Source: Candidatus Eiseniibacteriota bacterium
GTDB lineage: Bacteria; JAFGKV01
Length of the DNA stretch: 9,708 nt
Direction of reading: 5' to 3'
Assembly (NCBI GenBank): GCA_025453925.1
Contig: JALOPK010000100.1
Location: 1 to 9,708, forward strand
A program made the translations under genes and the position numbers. Positions 1 through 9,708 of this stretch are shown piece by piece (the first letter of the stretch is position 1; the number at the start of each line of letters is the position of its first letter). The notes below the pieces were generated by a model, which was given only the letters and a program-made list of their open reading frames with translations, was not told the origin of the DNA and made no database searches.

Positions 1-306
1 ATCGATCTCCACCTGACCCGCCATGGCCATGCTTTCCCTGACGACCTCACGGTTCCCGCCCGCTTCCAGGCCGGCCAGAAGCACCTTGGCGACCGGCACC
101 CTCCCAATACGGCATCGGGTCTGAGCCATATCGCGCTGGCCGTCTCTGATCAGGGTAAGAATCTCCCACGAAGCCCGGTCGGTGCCCTTCCTCGCCCGCC
201 GGACTACCATACACCGCTCGATGAAGACTCCCAGCGCCACGAGAGAACCCAAGGCGATAGGCACCATGAAGAAACCGCCCTTGATCACCAACGTCAGCAG
301 ATTCAC
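1..306 (-). CDS. MotA/TolQ/ExbB-family proton channel subunit, N-terminal part (cut by window edge)
   Basis: The family forms the inner-membrane, pmf-driven stator of Exb-TonB, Tol-Pal and related motors such as Myxococcus AglR. The 102 visible codons begin NLLTLVIKGGFFMVPIALGS, followed by LVALGVFIERCMVVRRA: the first transmembrane helix and the basic 'IER..V.RRA' end typical of ExbB/TolQ. A cytoplasmic stretch follows, with PVAKVLLAGLEAG (about residues 72-84) matching the family's 'P.a.v...gl..g' block. The remaining two helices lie beyond base 1. The GTG start at 306 overlaps the previous gene's TGA by 4 bases (GTGA, 303-306) and has a good AGGAGGG ribosome site at 319-313. An ExbD/TolR partner would be expected next, outside the window. 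ExbB, TolQ and AglR cannot be told apart from this fragment, so no symbol is given. Confidence 0.88.
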   Translation of the reverse strand, partial: MNLLTLVIKGGFFMVPIALGSLVALGVFIERCMVVRRARKGTDRASWEILTLIRDGQRDMAQTRCRIGRVPVAKVLLAGLEAGGNREVVRESMAMAGQVEID

Positions 307-1730
307 ACGAATCCCTCCTGGCTATTCGGCCGTCTCAGACTCCAGCCGATCCCAACCGAAAGCACCGGTCCGGGGCGAGACCAGAGGCGCCACCCCCAGG
401 ATTGCCCCGCCTGAAGCCACGCTTCCCATCCCGCCCTGAGGGGCAGTGTGGCCTCGATTGATAGACCCGACGACGCGGGGATCGCGTCGTTCCATCCGCG
501 CATTCCGCTGTCCCCTTCCAGAGCAAGACGAATCCGAGGGCGCTCACCGCCCGCCGCGCGGACCCACCACGTGGCTTCGGGGGCGAGCGGCCACCGGGAA
601 GAGTTGGGCGCGGGACTGACAGATGATCGTGCGACCTTCAACCCATCCATGCCCAGGCCGGCCTCAGCACGCAGCAAGCCGTCCCTCCAGACAACGGATA
701 AGTGCGCCCGGGGGCCTTCTCCGGAGAGCGACTCGACCACCCAAGTCGAATCATCGTCGCGCCACGCAGGGGCACTCCCCACCTCGCGAACTTCCACGGA
801 TCCCCCGATACTCAGCCGGGGTGTGACCCGAATCTGCGCGGTAGCAGCTGCGCGCCACGGAACGAACTCGGCTCGAGCCGAGGCCTCTCCCGCTGCGGGG
901 AACTGCTCCCGCAACAATGCGGCCGTGATGAGACGAAGCCGTCGCTCGGCTACCACGCCGATGGCCGCCCGGCCGAGCTCCCAAGGTCCGCCGGAGGCGG
1001 ATCCCTCCAGCGCCCAGCGAGTCTCGTTGCCGTCATCCACCATGGCGGGACCTGCACGAACGCCCATCCGAGCGGGAGCGTACCACCATGCGATGCTCGC
1101 GCCCAACACGCGGTCCCCGGCGCAGACCTGAAATGGCAATTCCACTCTGGGCGCAATGCCCTGCACGCAGACGTCGCCATGGATGCCCTCACCGTCCGGC
1201 CCGCTTCCCGTGAGCCGGGCACGAATCGCGGCAGCGGCCGACAACGGCGCCGCCACGGTGATTCCCCCGTGCACCCATCCCGGAGCAACCCCGACGCCAT
1301 TCAGCCGGTCCGCCCAGTGCTTAACTCGGATGGCCGCGCTTCCCCATCGCCCTGACGCGACGGCCAGCGCGCGTACTCCACGGCGGTCAAGGTCGCCTGC
1401 GTCGAACCACCAGGCTTCGGCGGCGAGGCCTCCGGCGGTTTCCCCGATCCCCGCCAGAACCCTGCCGCACCCATATGGCCCGACACCCCCCATTGCACCG
1501 AAACCCGCCGGCGGCGGCCGACGAATCAGCCCCGCAGGGGCGTCACCGAGTATCTGTGCCAGCCGGGGCGCGGGGACGGCCCGAGGCCGCATTCCCGGAG
1601 GGATCGCGGGTTCAGGCCAGAAGTCCCGTCTGGGCAAGTCGACATGGGCCGACCCGGCCACCACGAGATGCGGAAGCTCCAGGTCGGCGGCAGCCATCAG
1701 CGCGACCACCGCGAAGAAAACGCCGGTCAC
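303..1730 (-). CDS. Putative outer-membrane beta-barrel-like protein, function unknown
   Basis: I do not recognise a named family in this 475-residue protein. The N-terminus (MTGVFFAVVALMAAA) looks like a very short signal peptide, with likely cleavage near residue 15, although it has no positive charge before the hydrophobic stretch. The mature protein begins DLELPHLVVAGSAHVDLPRRD, a short beta segment before a Pro-rich linker (about 40-75). The rest is rich in Gly, Trp and alternating polar/apolar stretches separated by short turns, and the last residues contain GPVLSVGIGWSLRR, resembling a closing barrel strand, although the true C-terminus is SQEGFV. Three Cys occur, in YGCGRV, DVCVQG and QVCAGD. 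The GTG start at 1730 overlaps the TPR gene's TGA (GTGA, 1727-1730), with GGGAG about 7 bases upstream. Its position between a periplasmic TPR protein and an ExbB/TolQ subunit suits an outer-membrane partner of the motor. A soluble beta-rich periplasmic protein remains possible. Confidence 0.7.
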   Translation of the reverse strand: MTGVFFAVVALMAAADLELPHLVVAGSAHVDLPRRDFWPEPAIPPGMRPRAVPAPRLAQILGDAPAGLIRRPPPAGFGAMGGVGPYGCGRVLAGIGETAGGLAAEAWWFDAGDLDRRGVRALAVASGRWGSAAIRVKHWADRLNGVGVAPGWVHGGITVAAPLSAAAAIRARLTGSGPDGEGIHGDVCVQGIAPRVELPFQVCAGDRVLGASIAWWYAPARMGVRAGPAMVDDGNETRWALEGSASGGPWELGRAAIGVVAERRLRLITAALLREQFPAAGEASARAEFVPWRAAATAQIRVTPRLSIGGSVEVREVGSAPAWRDDDSTWVVESLSGEGPRAHLSVVWRDGLLRAEAGLGMDGLKVARSSVSPAPNSSRWPLAPEATWWVRAAGGERPRIRLALEGDSGMRGWNDAIPASSGLSIEATLPLRAGWEAWLQAGQSWGWRLWSRPGPVLSVGIGWSLRRPNSQEGFV

Positions 1731-4573
1731 CGGGCGGCTCCCGTTCCGGCGCCCGCCAGCGTGCGGGCAACGGCGCCGGCCGGGGCGGCCAGGGAGTCCT
1801 CCGGAAACAGATAGGCCAACTTGAGGAACAAGCGCCGCGCCTCAGCCGAATCGCCGCGCGCCGCCTCGGCCTCCGCCGCGACCCAGTAGGCTCGCGGCGA
1901 CCCGCCCGACGTCTGGGCGAGAAGCTGCGGGAGCCAGGCCAGCGCGCTCTCCGGCCGGCCTGCCGCGAGGTGAACTTCCGCCCCGGCCAGAAGGGCCTTG
2001 TCACGCCATTCGCCCGTACCCGTCCTCGCCACGTGGGCCCATACTGCCAGTGCGGAGTCTGGCTCCTCTCGCAACGTCCTCCCCAGCTCAAACCGCGCCG
2101 CGTCACGCAGGTCGCTGGAAGGATATGACTCAAGGAGTGTACGGAGGAGATGCCGCGCGCCCGCCGGGTCGGCCTCTCGGGCCAAGCGGGCCGCCTGGTA
2201 GAGGCCCTCGGCGGCCTCGGGTGCATCAGGCCAGCGGCGGGCCAGTTCCTCGAACGCCCTGCGGGCCTCCTGCGGTCTGCTGCGGAGGCACCACGCGGCC
2301 CGGAGGTCGGAACCCGGCTGGTTCAACTCACGGTAGAGAGGAAGCGCCTCGTCCACCCGGTCCGCCCCGTAGAGCAGGTCCGCCTTGGCCAAGGTCAGGA
2401 TGCCGCGCTTTCCCCCGTCCTGGACCCAGCCGAGTAGACTGTCGCACAGGGCCAGAGCCTGCGGGGCGCCGGAGGACTGCATTTCCGCCCAGAGCGCGCC
2501 CTGCACCGCGTGCGCCCAGAGATCCGAGTCGGGATAGCCGCTGATCACCGACAGATAGGTGCGCCGGGCAGGCGGATACTCGCCACGATTGTACTGGCAG
2601 TCTCCCACCCGGTACAGCGCATTGTCGCGCGTTTCCCGATCACGCTGCAGGTCGATGATACTGCGATACTGCGCCTCCGCATCGTCGAATCTCCCCGCCC
2701 GGAAGAGGGCCTCCCCCTTCTCGAACAATGCGTCATCGGCCATCGGCCCGGTCGACGAGCCCCGGAACAGCCGCTCCAGCACCGCGACCGCTTCGTCGGT
2801 CTCCCCTGCCAGCGACAAGGCGCGACCGAGGCCCAGGAGCGCTTCATCACCGATCTCCCGGCGGGTGATCATTTGGGTTGCCTGCCGATAGGACGCCGCC
2901 GCTTCGTCGTAGTTGCCCAGCATCATCAGCACGTCCGCCGCACGCACCACCGCCCTGGCGGCGGTCTCGGCACCCGGATCGTGAGCGGCGGCACGCCGGA
3001 ACTCCTCCAGGGCCTCCTCACGTCGTTCCAGCGAGAGCCACGCCCACGCTCTCCCGAATGATGCCTCCGCCCGCTCACTCATTGCAAGAGGGCCGGCCAG
3101 CGCCGCAGTGTACGCCGACTCGGCTTCCGTCCAACGCCCCTGACGGGCCAGAGCCTCGGCCTTCCAGAATGAGGTTCGAGCGGCGATGCTGTCGCCGGAG
3201 TCCTCCAGGAGCGACTCAGCCAGTCGTTCGACCTTGGCCCACGACTCGGCCCGGTAGGCAGCGATCAATGCCCGAAACGCCAGGTCGCGCTCCAGCGGTT
3301 TCCCTGCATGATCGCGGGCGTCCAGCAGCAGCCGGGTCGCATCGTCCCACCTCCCCTGCCGTGAAGCCACGTCGGCATAGAGACAGTATCCTTCCAGGCT
3401 GTCGTCACCCGTGACGAGGTGCCTGAACCCACGGTCCAGCGTGCGGGTGGCCGCGTCAAGGTCGCCCGACTCCCGCTGAAGGGCCGCCCTCAGAAGCACC
3501 GCGCGTGACAAGAGAACCCGATCGCTTATGCCGGCCGTTTCGACCGCCAACAAGGAATCCCCCGCCAAAGGCCGCCCCGTGGCGCCTAGAGCTGAGGCCA
3601 GCGTCACCGCCGCCTCGGAACGGTCGAAACCCTCCAGGTACCGCATGGCGGGGGTCAAGACGCGGACTGCCTCAACGGGCTGGCCTTCCTCCAGGAGCAT
3701 CCATGCAAGGAGGGTAGGCGACTCCCCGGAATGTACCGACAACAGGGTGATGGCGTCCCGGTGCTTGCCCTGTTCCCACAGGCTTCTGGCCTTCACCTCC
3801 CTGAGGAGCCGCGAGTCTCCTCGACCCGGCCACCGGTTCGCCATGGTCTGGAGGGTGCGCTCGGCAGCGGCGGCCATCCCTCCTTCAAGCTGCAGCCTCG
3901 CCAGGGACAGAAGATCCTCAGGCTGTGCGTCGGAGCCTCCGGCAAGACCGGTCAGCAACTCCCTCGCCTGGTCCTCTCGGCCGATGCGCTGGAGCGCTTC
4001 CGCATGCCGGCGCACCGCCCATCCGCGGAGTTCGCCCGAAGGGAGGACTCCCGCCGCCCGGCTGAGCAGCTCCGAGGAACGCGAGAACTCGCCGCGGCGA
4101 AACGCGGCTTCTCCCGCCCAGTAGAATGCCTCCCCCGCTCCCTGCCCCTTTCCCGCTCCTACCTTCAGGTACAGGCTCTCCGCTTCGGCATAGCTGCCCA
4201 GCTCGAACAGGGTCGCGGCAAGCCTGAATCGAGCCTGATCCGACCAGTGCGACACAGGGTTGGCCGCCACGAAGGTCTCGAGGCTGCGTCGCGCGCGAGT
4301 CCAGTCTCCAAGGAGCACCCAGCAGTCAGCGGCGAGAAACGAGGCTTCTTCGGCGTCGGGATGGTCAGGGTGACCCAGCGCGAACTGCTCCAGTTCCTCG
4401 GCGGCAAGCCGGTACTCACCCTGCGCATACAAATGCCGCGCGAAGTCGAGATCCAGGCCCGCGCCCGCATCCGGCTGCGCAACACTGCCAACCGGCCACA
4501 GCATCAGCGTGAAGTACACCGGCAGGAGAATCCGCATCGGCCCGAACCGCCCTGCGAAGCGCACCGAAGTCAT
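1727..4573 (-). CDS. Large secreted tetratricopeptide-repeat (TPR) protein
   Basis: A 948-residue protein made almost wholly of helical TPR-type repeats, probably a periplasmic or outer-membrane-associated scaffold. A signal peptide (about residues 13-32, MRILLPVYFTLMLWPVGSVA) precedes the mature start QPDAG. TPR pairs recur from about 41 to 925; clear ones are FARHLYAQGEYRLAAEELEQ (44-63), LFELGSYAEAESLY (122-135), FWKAEALARQGRWTEAESAY (469-488), LMMLGNYDEAAASYRQ (549-564), EKGEALFRAGRFDDAEAQYR (618-637) and DCQYNRGEYPPARRTY (658-673). Proximity to ExbB/TolQ recalls CpoB/YbgF of Tol-Pal and the TPR proteins of Glt gliding machinery, but this protein is far larger than CpoB. The ATG at 4573 was chosen because it overlaps the upstream TGA (ATGA, 4570-4573); the ATG at 4537 is an alternative that starts directly at the signal peptide, and neither has a strong ribosome site. 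No enzymatic domain is visible. Confidence 0.9.
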   Translation of the reverse strand: MTSVRFAGRFGPMRILLPVYFTLMLWPVGSVAQPDAGAGLDLDFARHLYAQGEYRLAAEELEQFALGHPDHPDAEEASFLAADCWVLLGDWTRARRSLETFVAANPVSHWSDQARFRLAATLFELGSYAEAESLYLKVGAGKGQGAGEAFYWAGEAAFRRGEFSRSSELLSRAAGVLPSGELRGWAVRRHAEALQRIGREDQARELLTGLAGGSDAQPEDLLSLARLQLEGGMAAAAERTLQTMANRWPGRGDSRLLREVKARSLWEQGKHRDAITLLSVHSGESPTLLAWMLLEEGQPVEAVRVLTPAMRYLEGFDRSEAAVTLASALGATGRPLAGDSLLAVETAGISDRVLLSRAVLLRAALQRESGDLDAATRTLDRGFRHLVTGDDSLEGYCLYADVASRQGRWDDATRLLLDARDHAGKPLERDLAFRALIAAYRAESWAKVERLAESLLEDSGDSIAARTSFWKAEALARQGRWTEAESAYTAALAGPLAMSERAEASFGRAWAWLSLERREEALEEFRRAAAHDPGAETAARAVVRAADVLMMLGNYDEAAASYRQATQMITRREIGDEALLGLGRALSLAGETDEAVAVLERLFRGSSTGPMADDALFEKGEALFRAGRFDDAEAQYRSIIDLQRDRETRDNALYRVGDCQYNRGEYPPARRTYLSVISGYPDSDLWAHAVQGALWAEMQSSGAPQALALCDSLLGWVQDGGKRGILTLAKADLLYGADRVDEALPLYRELNQPGSDLRAAWCLRSRPQEARRAFEELARRWPDAPEAAEGLYQAARLAREADPAGARHLLRTLLESYPSSDLRDAARFELGRTLREEPDSALAVWAHVARTGTGEWRDKALLAGAEVHLAAGRPESALAWLPQLLAQTSGGSPRAYWVAAEAEAARGDSAEARRLFLKLAYLFPEDSLAAPAGAVARTLAGAGTGAAR

Positions 4574-5175
4574 TCGCTGGTGACGAAGAACAGGGCCAGA
4601 AGCGTGCCCACTACCCCCGCCACCGCAAGGGGGGCCACGAGTCCCGGCGTGGTCGGCACCGCGGTGGAGGGAGAGAATACGGGATCGGACAGGCGGCCCA
4701 GGTCCGCACCGCGGGTCCACTCCCGGGCGCTGCCGTTGGTCCGCACGCTCGCTACGACCGCGCCGGATGGGCTCAGCACTCTGGCAGCGAGGACGCAGGA
4801 GCCGTCCCTGAGGACCCAGGGAGTCATGGCGATGCCTTTGCGGTCGACCTGCCGGTGCCGCACTCCCAGCTCCGCGATCCGAACATTGATGACATGAGTC
4901 GTTGAGTCGCCCCCTGTCTCCCGGAGCGGAAACCCTTGCTCAAGAAGCGCCCGCTCCAACTGGGAGCGGACGAGCCACGCGCCATCCCCGCCACCCGTCA
5001 GATCCACCCGGAAGCCGAGGCCCTCCAGCGGCCGGCACGCCGCCACGACACTGTCGATGCAGGAACCAGCCGCCCTCGCCACCAGATCAAGATCCGTCGC
5101 AAGGGGGACGACACGAGTCGTCCCGGACGCGCAGGCCAGAACCACCAGCCCCGCCAGGATCAGGCCGCGCTTCAC
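4570..5175 (-). CDS. Putative lipoprotein with C-terminal transmembrane segment, function unknown
   Basis: The 201-residue product starts VKRGLILAGLVVLAC, a signal peptide with a lipobox and lipidation Cys at residue 15. The middle (about 60-150) reads as an alpha/beta domain: a helix LVRSQLERALLEQGF (69-82), then strands around HVINVRIAELGV (94-105), CVLAARVLSPSGAVVASV (127-144). This resembles in outline small envelope lipoproteins that measure or cap secretion assemblies, but I cannot assign a family. The C-terminus is strongly hydrophobic (LVAPLAVAGVVGTLLALFFV, about 179-198) and ends TSE, so the protein may be anchored at both ends. The GTG start at 5175 overlaps the preceding TGA (GTGA, 5172-5175); AGGAG and GGAG lie upstream at 5182-5178 and 5187-5184. 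The frame is open further upstream to 5331, but that part lies inside the neighbouring lipoprotein gene and would bury the signal peptide. Confidence 0.8.
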   Translation of the reverse strand: MKRGLILAGLVVLACASGTTRVVPLATDLDLVARAAGSCIDSVVAACRPLEGLGFRVDLTGGGDGAWLVRSQLERALLEQGFPLRETGGDSTTHVINVRIAELGVRHRQVDRKGIAMTPWVLRDGSCVLAARVLSPSGAVVASVRTNGSAREWTRGADLGRLSDPVFSPSTAVPTTPGLVAPLAVAGVVGTLLALFFVTSE

Positions 5176-5693
5176 GGCTCCTGCTCCAGCTCGTAGCAAT
5201 CGGTCATCCGGAACCGGCCATCGCTTTGTTTCTGGACCACGAACTCCAACCAGCCGTAGCCGACCCCCTCTTCGAGAAGCTCGGTGGCCGTCTCCCAGAC
5301 CAGGAGGTCGAACTCCCGATAGAGTCGCCACGTCTCAGGATCGTCGGCGATCCTCGCGGCGTAATCGCCGACAAGCGTCAACTCTATGTGATCCATCGTG
5401 TCGAACATGTGCCGATGGAATCGCTCTTCCTCTACCTTCCCCCACGAAGGAGCAGGCCAGACATCGTTCACGTCCCGGGGCACCAGGTGGTACTCGAACG
5501 TGTCCACGAAACATGCCAGGTAGCGATCGATGTCCATGTTGCGGTAGGCGTCCGCCAGTTGCACGACAACGCCGCTGGGCGTCTTCAGCAGATCCTCGGG
5601 ATCGCCAGGCTCCTTGTCGGGATCGAAGATGCATCCCGGGAGGCTCAACACCGCCGCGACCGCGAGCATCGCCACACGGCTCCCACGCATCAT
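5172..5693 (-). CDS. NTF2/SnoaL-like domain lipoprotein
   Basis: The 173-residue product begins MMRGSRVAMLAVAAVLSLPGC, a signal peptide with the lipobox LPGC and lipidation at Cys21; Asp at +4 and the acidic spacer after it (DPDKEPGDPED) suit an exported, probably outer-membrane lipoprotein. From about residue 38 the pattern VVVQLADAYRNMDIDRYLACF, followed by a beta sheet-rich second half (IELTLVGDY, WRLYREFDLLVWE, YGWLEFVVQKQSDGRFRMTDC), matches the cone-shaped NTF2-like/SnoaL fold. In lipoproteins such a domain normally serves binding or scaffolding; no catalytic residues are evident. The ribosome site AAGGAGG (5704-5698) lies inside the end of the ClpX-like gene. It is 4 bases from the ATG at 5693, which forms the ATGA overlap, and 7 from a second ATG at 5690, so the protein could start one residue later. 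Confidence 0.85.
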   Translation of the reverse strand: MMRGSRVAMLAVAAVLSLPGCIFDPDKEPGDPEDLLKTPSGVVVQLADAYRNMDIDRYLACFVDTFEYHLVPRDVNDVWPAPSWGKVEEERFHRHMFDTMDHIELTLVGDYAARIADDPETWRLYREFDLLVWETATELLEEGVGYGWLEFVVQKQSDGRFRMTDCYELEQEP

Positions 5694-7285
5694 GGTTCCT
5701 CCTTCCCTTGCGGTTCAGTGATCTCGGTCTGCGGATCGTCGGTCCCCGCCTGCCGCCGGGCATAGGCGTTCCTGATGAGCGAATCGAGGTAGGCCCGGGG
5801 ATTCCTGCACGCCGCCAGTCCGAGACGCAGGCTCTTCTTGCCCGCAAGCTGCAAGCCGTACTCGAGATCCGAGAAATGGTGCAAACAGAAAACACGGGGG
5901 TCCTTCCCCTCCCGCCCCGAGCGTTCCACGATCCAGCGACGGGCAGCCGGCGTGAGGTCGAGTCTGATCCCGGTCCGCTCCCGGAACTGCGTCACGAACT
6001 GGTGAAGCGCTCCCGAGATCAGCATCCGCCGCAGTTCGCCTTCGGGATCGGCGATGGTATCACTGGTGATCACCACCTTGGGCACACCGGAACCCGGGAG
6101 GGCGTGCTCCAGGGGGAGTAGACATTGCTCGAGGATGGACTTGAGCCCCCTCGCACCGGTGCCCTCGCTGGCCGCGCGGTGGGCGATCTCTCGAAATGCC
6201 TCCGCCTCGAACTCGAGAGCGATCCCGTACGAGGCGAAATCACGGATCTTGCCCTGGGTGAGGGGACTCATGGGGTTCTGAAGGATCTGCCGCAGTCGGT
6301 CTTCGTCCAGCGGCCGGAAAATCACCACAATGGGCAGCCTCCCGATGAACTCCGGCTCAAATCCATAGGCAATCAAGTCCTCCGAGCGAACCTGGCTGAG
6401 GGTCCAGTACGCGTCTTCGAGCTGCGCCTCCTCGTGTGAACCGAATCCGATTACCTTCTTGCGCAGGCGACGCCGGATGACATCCTCCAGTCCGACAAAC
6501 GCCCCGCTCATGATGAAGAGGATGTTCCGTGTGCTGATTTTCCTGCGATGGACCCGACCCGTGCGCTGCACCTCGATCATCGCCTCCATCTGACTGGCGA
6601 GATCGAAGGGCGCACGCAGCTCGACGTCGGTCTCTTCCATGAGCTTGAGCAAGTTCCGCTGGACGCCTGTTCTGGAGACGTCAGGACCCTGGGTGATCCC
6701 GCTGGAAGCGATCTTGTCGATTTCGTCCAAGTAGATGATCCCGTGCTCCGCCAGGTTCACCGAGCCGTTCGCCTGATGGACCAGATCGCGGGCCAGTTGG
6801 TCCACGTCGCCGCCCACGTAGCCCGTTTCGCTGAACTTCGTCGCATCTCCCTTCACGAAGGGCACACCCAGTTCATCAGCGATCAGGCGCACGATGTAGG
6901 TCTTGCCCACCCCCGTCGGCCCGATAATCAGCATGTTAGCCTTCACCTCTCCCACGAGCCGCTGACGGTCGGGTGAAGCAGACTCCCACGCGACGCGATG
7001 GAAGTGGGTGCAGACCTTGGTGGCCATGGCCCGGGTAGCCTCGTCCTGACCGACCACGAACTGTTGCAGCCGGGCCTCCAACTCACCGGGCAACCGGTCA
7101 AACTGGATCGTTGCCGAATCCTCGGGCGTTTGGTCGTCGACTTTCACGGCCGAGGTCTTTGGTGCGGGCATCATCACTTTCACTCCAACTTGATCGCCGA
7201 GGAAGCCCTGGAGCTTCTCCTGGAGCTTCTCCAGAACCCGTTCAAACCCCTCGGCGCCTTCTTCCTTGGTTGGTCCCTCGCTCAT
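5690..7285 (-). CDS. ClpX-like AAA+ unfoldase lacking the zinc-binding domain, with C-terminal extension
   Basis: A 531-residue ATPase of the ClpX clade, which unfolds proteins and usually feeds them to ClpP. Visible motifs: VVGQDEA (77-83), Walker A GPTGVGKT (122-129), pore loop GYVG (155-158), Walker B IIYLDE (183-188), sensor 1 region NILFIMSGAF (254-263), IGF tripeptide (279-281, the ClpP-docking loop in ClpX), arginine finger in FIGR (R316) and sensor 2 GARGLKS (377-383). Differences from ordinary ClpX: no Cys4 zinc domain, replaced by a charged, possibly coiled-coil N-terminus (about 1-60); no RKH substrate loop where one would expect it (about 228-250); and an additional C-terminal region (about 424-531) rich in aromatic and basic residues. 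HslU is unlikely because its I-domain is absent. The ATG at 7285 has AAGGA at 7295-7291, spacing 5. It is the first gene of the coupled operon and overlaps the NTF2-like lipoprotein by ATGA. Confidence 0.93.
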   Translation of the reverse strand: MSEGPTKEEGAEGFERVLEKLQEKLQGFLGDQVGVKVMMPAPKTSAVKVDDQTPEDSATIQFDRLPGELEARLQQFVVGQDEATRAMATKVCTHFHRVAWESASPDRQRLVGEVKANMLIIGPTGVGKTYIVRLIADELGVPFVKGDATKFSETGYVGGDVDQLARDLVHQANGSVNLAEHGIIYLDEIDKIASSGITQGPDVSRTGVQRNLLKLMEETDVELRAPFDLASQMEAMIEVQRTGRVHRRKISTRNILFIMSGAFVGLEDVIRRRLRKKVIGFGSHEEAQLEDAYWTLSQVRSEDLIAYGFEPEFIGRLPIVVIFRPLDEDRLRQILQNPMSPLTQGKIRDFASYGIALEFEAEAFREIAHRAASEGTGARGLKSILEQCLLPLEHALPGSGVPKVVITSDTIADPEGELRRMLISGALHQFVTQFRERTGIRLDLTPAARRWIVERSGREGKDPRVFCLHHFSDLEYGLQLAGKKSLRLGLAACRNPRAYLDSLIRNAYARRQAGTDDPQTEITEPQGKEEP

Positions 7286-7626: not shown

Positions 7627-7792
7627 TGAGAAGAGGAGTCCCCCCGTGGTCCCGCTGTCTTGACCGGGCCGTATGGCAGGGCACGGGACGCCGCCGTTGT
7701 CGCCTTCGAGGCATACCTCCCCCGCATCGCCCACCTGCCTCCCCGAGCGACCCACCCCGGCTGCCCGAATCGCACCGAACCCGCGGATGCCC

Positions 7793-7821
7793 TTGACATC
7801 GCAGGCGTCCGTTCGCAACTC
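7793..7821 (+). promoter_or_regulatory. Candidate -35 element for the GH13 gene
   Basis: TTGACA at 7793-7798 is a perfect -35 consensus, 89 bases before the GTG start. At 16-18 bases spacing the -10 candidates (GCAACT, CAACTC, AACTCC) are poor, so the promoter may be activator-dependent, use another sigma factor, or be a chance match. Confidence 0.25.
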
Positions 7822-7871
7822 CAGGTCCTGCGTCAGCAGTCCGGGACTGATCATGCCGCTTCTCACCGACT

Positions 7872-7878
7872 GGAGGAG
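7872..7878 (+). promoter_or_regulatory. Ribosome binding site of the GH13 gene
   Basis: GGAGGAG lies just before the GTG at 7882. Counting GGAGG as the core, the spacer is AGTAT, 5 bases. It favours the GTG over the in-frame ATG at 7897, whose only nearby purine run (AGGA) abuts the start codon. Confidence 0.55.
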
Positions 7879-7881
7879 TAT

Positions 7882-9708
7882 GTGCCGCCCACAGGAATGC
7901 TCGCCGGCCTCGCGTGTGTCCTCGCCGCCCACTGTTCGCCAGTGCTTCACGCCACCGGAGCGCATCCCGTGGGGGGCCAGGTGATAGTCCCCTACCGGGC
8001 GCCCGAGTGGGCCAAGAACGTCGTCTGGTATCAGATCTTCCCCGAGAGATTCCGTAACGGGGATTCGTCCAACGACCCCACGCTCGATGACATCCGCGGC
8101 TCCTGGCCTCACGACAACGCTTCGCCGTGGCAGATCCATCCCTGGACATCGGACTGGTATGCCCTGCAGCCCTATGAGCAGAAAAACGGGCGGGACATCT
8201 GGTTCAACCTTCAACGGCGCCGGTATGGCGGTGACCTCCAAGGGATCATCGACAGACTCGACTACCTGCGAGACCTCGGTATCGGCGCGATCTACCTGAA
8301 TCCGGTGTTTCAGGCCCCGTCCCTGCACAAGTATGATGGCGTCAGCTATCATCACATCGATCCAACCTTCGGCCCGGATCCGGCAGGCGACCGCTCACTT
8401 ATCGCCGGCGAAACTCCGGACGACCCGGCAACCTGGGTATGGACCGCGGCCGATCGCCTTATGCTGGAGTTGATACGCAGAGTGCACGCCAACGGCATGC
8501 GAATCATCTTCGATGGCGTGTTCAATCATATGGGCATCACCAGTTTTGCCTTCCAGGACGTGATGAATCACCAGGAGGCCTCCCGGTTCAGGGACTGGTT
8601 TGAAATCAGATCCTGGGATAACCCGCTGAAGGGTTCGCGCTTCGACTACCAGGGATGGTTCGGGGTGCGGGAGCTGCCTGAGCTCCGGGAGGATGAGCGG
8701 GGCATCGTGACGGGCCCCCGGGAATACATCTTCGCGGCGACCCGCCGCTGGATGGATCCGGATGGCGACGGCGCACCCGCCGACGGCATCGACGGATGGC
8801 GTCTGGATGTCGCTTTCTGTGTGCGCCATCAGTTCTGGAAGGACTGGCGCGTGCTGGTCAAGGCCATCAATCCGGATGCCTACCTCACGGCTGAGGTCAT
8901 CGACAGTCTGAGGGTGCTCAAGCCATACCTGGAGGGTGACGAGTTCGACGCCATCATGAACTACACCCTGGCCGCCGTCTGTGGAGAGTTCTTCATCGAG
9001 CAGGAAAACAGAATCACCGCCTCGGAGTTCGATGCGCGCCTCGGAGAACTCCGGGGTGCCTTCCACCCCGAGATGGCCTACGTCATGCAGAACCTCTTCG
9101 ACAGCCACGACACCAACCGGCTCGCGTCCCACATCGTGAATCGTGGGATGGGTGGCTACCGCAACTGGCCCGAGTACTTCGACCGATCCAAGGCCACCAA
9201 TCCCGCCTACGATACGCGAAAACCGACCGGGGATGAGCGCAGGATTCAGAGGCTCTGCGTGCTGTTCCAGATGACCTACGTCGGCGCACCGCTCATCTAC
9301 TATGGCGACGAGGTCGGCATGTGGGGCGCCAATGATCCCTGCTGCCGCAAACCCATGCTGTGGGATGATCTCACGTACGAACGGGAGATCGCTCGACCAG
9401 ACAGATCCCGGCGAGAGGAGGGAGACGCGGTCTCTCCTGACGCCGATCTCAGGGCCTACTACCGGTCACTCATCTCGATCCGCAATCGACACCCCGCCCT
9501 TCGCACCGGGGACTTCGCGACACTGATCAGCGATGACAGCCGATCGATCTACGCCTTCATCCGGCAGGCAGGTGAGGACACCGTCGTCGTCGCCCTGAAC
9601 AACCGGGATGCTCCGCAGGATCTCGTACTGCCTTTGCCCAACCCGGGGCTCTGGATCGACGAGATGGGTCACCGAACGTTTGTGGCCGAGGAGCGCGGGC
9701 TGCGTGCG
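7882..9708 (+). CDS. GH13 (alpha-amylase family) glycoside hydrolase, exported, 3' end beyond window
   Basis: Hydrolyses or transfers alpha-glucosidic bonds in starch, maltodextrins or cyclodextrins. 609 codons are visible and the frame is open at the right edge. After a probable signal peptide (residues 1 to about 29) the catalytic barrel starts at W43 with VVWYQIFPERF. Numbered from the GTG: region I DGVFNH (211-216); a DPDGDG calcium-type loop (292-297); region II GWRLD with nucleophile Asp309; region III TAEVID with acid/base Glu338; region IV FDSHDTNR with transition-state Asp410; then YYGDEVGM and, from about 530, a beta C-domain (YAFIRQ, TVVVALNNR). The motifs resemble the neopullulanase/cyclomaltodextrinase branch, but the usual N-terminal domain of that branch (about 120 residues) is absent, so a periplasmic or extracellular alpha-amylase is likelier. 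The start is uncertain: GTG 7882 has GGAGG at 5-base spacing; ATG 7897 is the alternative. It is divergent from the ClpX-like operon. Confidence 0.92.
   Translation, partial: MPPTGMLAGLACVLAAHCSPVLHATGAHPVGGQVIVPYRAPEWAKNVVWYQIFPERFRNGDSSNDPTLDDIRGSWPHDNASPWQIHPWTSDWYALQPYEQKNGRDIWFNLQRRRYGGDLQGIIDRLDYLRDLGIGAIYLNPVFQAPSLHKYDGVSYHHIDPTFGPDPAGDRSLIAGETPDDPATWVWTAADRLMLELIRRVHANGMRIIFDGVFNHMGITSFAFQDVMNHQEASRFRDWFEIRSWDNPLKGSRFDYQGWFGVRELPELREDERGIVTGPREYIFAATRRWMDPDGDGAPADGIDGWRLDVAFCVRHQFWKDWRVLVKAINPDAYLTAEVIDSLRVLKPYLEGDEFDAIMNYTLAAVCGEFFIEQENRITASEFDARLGELRGAFHPEMAYVMQNLFDSHDTNRLASHIVNRGMGGYRNWPEYFDRSKATNPAYDTRKPTGDERRIQRLCVLFQMTYVGAPLIYYGDEVGMWGANDPCCRKPMLWDDLTYEREIARPDRSRREEGDAVSPDADLRAYYRSLISIRNRHPALRTGDFATLISDDSRSIYAFIRQAGEDTVVVALNNRDAPQDLVLPLPNPGLWIDEMGHRTFVAEERGLRA

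Follow-up and report, generated by a model that had tools for sequence, protein, structure and literature searches.

Why is a cytoplasmic unfoldase encoded at the head of a series of genes for the cell envelope? The question is raised by a 9,708-nucleotide stretch of DNA (the window), which is an entire contig (C51) and part of a 3.9-Mb draft genome of Candidatus Fermentibacteria, a bacterial phylum about which little is known. An earlier note on this DNA had described six co-directional genes led by a ClpX-like AAA+ unfoldase, and had proposed that the unfoldase belongs to an envelope motor that it may turn over or disassemble. The window was compared with G001, a genome of the same genus (loci L004 and L051 on a 92-kb contig), and G002, of another genus of the same family (loci L005 and L052 on a 47-kb contig), the three genomes together forming our sample of the phylum; homologues were searched for in a set of 290 genomes.

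Organization and conservation of the operon

All six genes are on the minus strand, as described before, in the order of a gene for the ClpX-like protein (hereafter ClpX2), a small lipoprotein gene, the gene for a C-terminally anchored protein, those for a TPR protein and a putative barrel, and the start of exbB. Start and stop codons overlap by 4 nt (ATGA or GTGA) at all five junctions in the window, overlaps that are mostly retained in L004 and L005. In each of the three Fermentibacteria genomes, the second operon gene, that of the small lipoprotein, is preceded by a Shine-Dalgarno-like AAGGAGGA. Gene order is also the same in these genomes as far as the contigs extend, the contig of G002 stopping after the barrel gene, and the gene for ClpX2 comes first in all three, which bears out the earlier description of a ClpX-like gene heading an envelope operon. 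Compared with G001 and G002, the proteins of the window show the following amino acid sequence identities: unfoldase, 67-75%; small lipoprotein, 55-72%; C-terminally anchored protein, 42-62%; TPR protein, 44-61%; barrel candidate, 32-45%. Since gene order is retained despite this divergence of the barrel candidate, the arrangement is not due to chance. The region upstream of the unfoldase gene varies: the window contains a divergent GH13 alpha-amylase-family gene (positions 7660-9708, plus strand, cut by the contig end), and different genes are found in L004 and L005. On the other side, the operon of G001 extends further than the window, which has the exbB start only, and includes contiguous exbB, exbD and tonB (L051; PF01618, PF02472 and PF03544, respectively) as well as genes for an NHL protein, a 1,186-aa protein and an Omp85-type protein.

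The small lipoprotein candidate (173 aa, positions 5172-5693, minus strand) has no family match and has a signal-like segment that ends in LPGC, while the exported 201-aa protein encoded next to it (4570-5175, minus strand) possesses a plausible lipobox plus a C-terminal hydrophobic segment. Both small genes are thus present as claimed, and the reading of their products as two lipoproteins is plausible for the first and needs qualifying for the second, with its additional hydrophobic segment. The predicted exported TPR protein (1727-4573, minus strand) is 948 residues long, in agreement with the earlier note, with an N-terminal signal-like segment and YbgF/BamD-like repeats that match NCBIfam YbgF (3.3e-48) and OM_YfiO (7.4e-20) and Pfam TPR and YfiO. 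The next gene (303-1730, minus strand) encodes a 475-aa protein that is phylum-specific in sequence, with no credible homologue outside the phylum among the 290 genomes. Its model is all-strand at low confidence (pLDDT 47), and the top Foldseek hits, with few exceptions, are outer-membrane barrels at low TM-scores; model and matches weakly suggest that the product of this gene is an outer-membrane beta-barrel, as described before. The last gene (1-306, minus strand), cut by the contig end, encodes the N-terminal 102 residues of a protein that is 76% identical to the product of the full-length gene in L051. Because this relative in G001 matches PF01618 (E 1.5e-27), the window gene is identified as encoding an ExbB/TolQ-family proton channel, as had been claimed.

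ClpX2 and its place in the ClpX/HslU family

ClpX2 (531 aa, positions 5690-7285, minus strand) is a ClpX-type AAA+ unfoldase without the zinc domain. It contains the Pfam domains AAA_2 (2.8e-27) and D2-small, and in the PDB it is matched best by ClpX (E 4e-69). Its scores against the NCBIfam ClpX models, 303 and 275 bits, are nevertheless below the respective cut-offs of 359 and 371 bits, and it scores 162 bits against the HslU model, whose cut-off is 362. In an alignment of 18 ClpX2 and 13 canonical ClpX sequences, Walker A/B, the GYVG pore-1 loop (residues 155-158 in the window, positions 6812-6823, minus strand), sensor 1, the Arg finger, sensor-2 GAR and xGF are intact in all 18 ClpX2. The last of these, IGF in the window (residues 279-281, positions 6443-6451, minus strand), lies where ClpX has its ClpP-docking loop; the xGF tripeptide is present in all the aligned ClpX2 and canonical ClpX sequences and does not by itself prove ClpP binding. 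The zinc CxxC pairs before the AAA module, two of which are found in each canonical ClpX, are absent from every aligned ClpX2, which has 37-89 residues of different sequence in place of the zinc domain, and no Pfam zinc-domain match was obtained for ClpX2 of the window. Beyond the AAA+ module, about 100-170 residues follow in ClpX2 vs. 13-22 in ordinary ClpX.

By profile comparison, this C-terminal extension (residues 419-512 in the window, positions 5750-6031, minus strand) duplicates the small subdomain of ClpX. With hhalign and alignments of 13-17 sequences, the extension matched the protein's own small subdomain (about residues 350-416) at a probability of 97.7 (E 2.3e-12), compared with 0.2-0.3% for three control regions, and the small domain of canonical ClpX at 87.8 (E 3.3e-6). 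The GARGL stretch of sensor 2 is absent from the second copy. The C-terminal region of some ClpX2 (L063 and L064) is longer, reaching about 170 residues, and contains an additional insertion ahead of the duplicated small domain.

Phylogenetic analysis places the ClpX2 members in one clade apart from ClpX, and when HslU is added, ClpX, HslU and ClpX2 form three clades with support values of 98/98 and 100/99 in an unrooted tree in which long branches meet. A plain ClpX identity is rejected by the tree and by the NCBIfam cut-offs, and an HslU identity by the separate clade and by the score against the HslU model. The host genome also encodes an ordinary ClpX, on a different contig, and in G001 and G002 the ordinary clpX is part of a tig-clpP-clpX-lon cluster; the earlier identification of the unfoldase as a ClpX paralogue is thus supported, and ClpX2 is distinct from the ClpX of its own host. 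Taken together, these results place ClpX2 beside ClpX and HslU as a probable third branch of their family, apparently not described before and characterized by a duplicated domain. A literature search found no description of this paralogue, which is weak evidence of novelty as most subscription articles were outside its coverage. A model of ClpX2 predicted from three sequences reached a pLDDT of only 33. A role in anti-phage defence was considered and dropped, as PADLOC matched neither the unfoldase nor the TPR protein.

Distribution and genomic contexts of ClpX2

A profile search of the 290 genomes identified 18 with a long ClpX2 match, scoring 377-1,114 bits, while ordinary ClpX scored about 230-275 bits. 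The clade is present in at least five phyla, because its remaining genomes lie outside the phyla of G047, G055, G267 and the window. Co-occurrence of ClpX2 with the envelope genes across phyla had been set beforehand as the test of the motor proposal, and the neighbourhood survey found the two adjoining in the three Fermentibacteria only. When the operon proteins were compared by BLAST with all ORFs in the surroundings (up to 20 kb) of ClpX2 at 15 loci outside the phylum, the unfoldase alone was recovered, except for one weak TPR match two genes from the unfoldase in L057. Outside Fermentibacteria, ClpX2 is found beside unrelated genes. In the phylum of G047, nadC is upstream of ClpX2 in 17 of 28 loci and uvrC downstream in 11 (both identified by eye, then extended with BLAST), and none of the operon proteins is among its nearest neighbours at these 28 loci; in that of G055, ClpX2 is followed in 6/6 loci by a gene that resembles a thiolase, named by eye; and in that of G267 the contexts are varied. 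Proteostasis genes are neighbours in about four lineages and include those for DnaJ (L060 and L064), an M48 peptidase (L066) and, in L062, a trypsin-PDZ protease that stands behind sigma and anti-sigma-like genes. ClpP is encoded in all the 18 genomes with ClpX2. HslU is found in 0/3 Fermentibacteria vs. 12/17 other genomes tested. In the three Fermentibacteria, a second clpP is present between tpiA/secG and ackA (L120, L122 and L123), besides that of the tig-clpP-clpX-lon cluster. A dedicated pairing of ClpX2 with such a second ClpP is rejected, as 11 of the 18 ClpX2 genomes show only one clpP match.

Several of the envelope genes also have relatives in places without ClpX2. Homologues of the C-terminally anchored protein were found in 14 other genomes of the 290, and in several genomes of other phyla (L085, L086, L087 and L089) their genes precede a BamD-like TPR gene and nadD without ClpX2; the proteins of these four loci are small and exported, with a C-terminal hydrophobic anchor and no family match. 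Relatives of the 1,186-aa protein of the G001 operon were found in 57 of the 290 genomes, including the three Fermentibacteria, often arranged as an NHL-barrel-Omp85 trio, and no ClpX2-type unfoldase was found in 20 regions carrying them. The trio is present in many phyla (L051/L069 of G001, L150, L151, L157, L160, L161, L162 and L164) and consists of an NHL-type gene, a gene for a protein of about 1,150 aa without Pfam or NCBIfam match and an Omp85-type gene. A suspected link of the 1,186-aa protein to SprA of the type IX translocon found no support.

Possible roles of ClpX2

The neighbourhood surveys reject, as a general claim, that ClpX2 is a dedicated unfoldase of an envelope motor, and what the earlier note had named as refuting its proposal is what is observed outside Fermentibacteria. 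As it adjoins unrelated genes in many other phyla, ClpX2 is probably not part of any such motor, and its varied contexts argue for a general rather than a motor-specific activity. We propose that ClpX2 is a ClpP-linked quality-control unfoldase that Fermentibacteria have recruited into an operon for envelope biogenesis, a reading to which we give an even chance. It is based on the motifs of ClpX2, on the presence of ClpP in every genome of the clade and on the DnaJ and protease neighbours in four lineages; the absence of HslU from the three Fermentibacteria also agrees with it. That the operon is strictly conserved within one phylum could equally mean that ClpX2 works specifically with the envelope proteins encoded there.

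A housekeeping ClpX2 could also share a promoter with the envelope genes by chance and be functionally unlinked to them, much as its nadC/uvrC or thiolase neighbours in other phyla are without obvious link, but we consider this rather unlikely, as two genera have kept the association and its translational coupling even though the barrel candidate has diverged to 32% identity. The turnover or disassembly proposed in the earlier note, in which ClpX2 as a dedicated regulator would disassemble or limit the motor by remodelling or degrading ExbB, ExbD or TonB at their cytoplasmic parts, is possible and no longer favoured. It agrees with the position of ClpX2 as the first, coupled gene in the three Fermentibacteria and with the presence of all three proteins in the operon of G001; we regard it as unlikely, however, given that these genes do not adjoin ClpX2 elsewhere in a clade of at least five phyla, and that several of the envelope genes have relatives that do without it. 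A chaperone or complex-remodelling unfoldase independent of ClpP, with a second small domain that caps or changes the ring, would suit the long divergence from ClpX and a C-terminal domain newly formed from the small one but is improbable, as the xGF kept at the ClpP loop of every aligned member would be unexpected if docking had been lost.

Under the quality-control reading, we propose that the window contains the start of an operon for outer-membrane biogenesis, or a TonB-energised one, to which Fermentibacteria may have added, as first gene, an old and otherwise free-standing unfoldase. ClpX2 most likely assembles as a ClpX-like hexamer, whose GYVG pore loop would grip substrates for ATP-driven unfolding and whose IGF loop would hand them to ClpP, while the second small domain, with no sensor 2 of its own, probably serves in the selection of substrates or adaptors or in ring assembly. 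The substrates would be precursors or misfolded products retained in the cytoplasm, and coupled translation would tune the dose of the unfoldase to the load of exported proteins.

More tentatively, and with some doubt, ClpX2 may stand beside ClpX and HslU as a third principal branch that, with its tandem small domain, forms a ClpP-linked protease of its own in many mostly uncultured diderm phyla. In Fermentibacteria, ClpX2 would then be tied specifically to the building of the outer membrane and keep watch, from the cytoplasm, over exported proteins. The list of bacterial unfoldases known to feed ClpP is short, and a widespread ClpX2 of this kind, lacking the zinc domain, would, if confirmed, add an unannotated class of protein-degradation machine. 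It would also offer a natural test of the role of the small domain in ring assembly, and its operon link is a concrete entry point to its substrates.

Comparison with known systems

The Agl-Glt machinery of Myxococcus, with which the earlier note compared the operon, resembles it only in generally combining TPR, barrel and TolQ-type proteins, and is not known to include an unfoldase. The resemblance to the TonB-ExbB-ExbD and Tol-Pal systems lies in the joining of ExbB, ExbD and TonB with a YbgF/BamD-like TPR protein; Pal, TolA and TolB were not identified within the operon of the window and its continuation in G001, and the operon differs from both systems by the addition of the unfoldase, the phylum-specific barrel candidate and, in G001, the NHL, 1,186-aa and Omp85 proteins. 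ClpX2 belongs to the same AAA+ family as HslU, to whose model it has a detectable match, but is far under the cut-off of that model, forms a separate clade and retains the xGF loop of the ClpX type. ClpX shares with ClpX2 the AAA+ module and each of its hallmarks from Walker A/B to GAR and the xGF loop. The zinc-binding N-domain (C4), which ClpX uses for adaptors, is missing from ClpX2, and a duplicated small domain, a separate clade and scores below the NCBIfam cut-offs further set ClpX2 apart.
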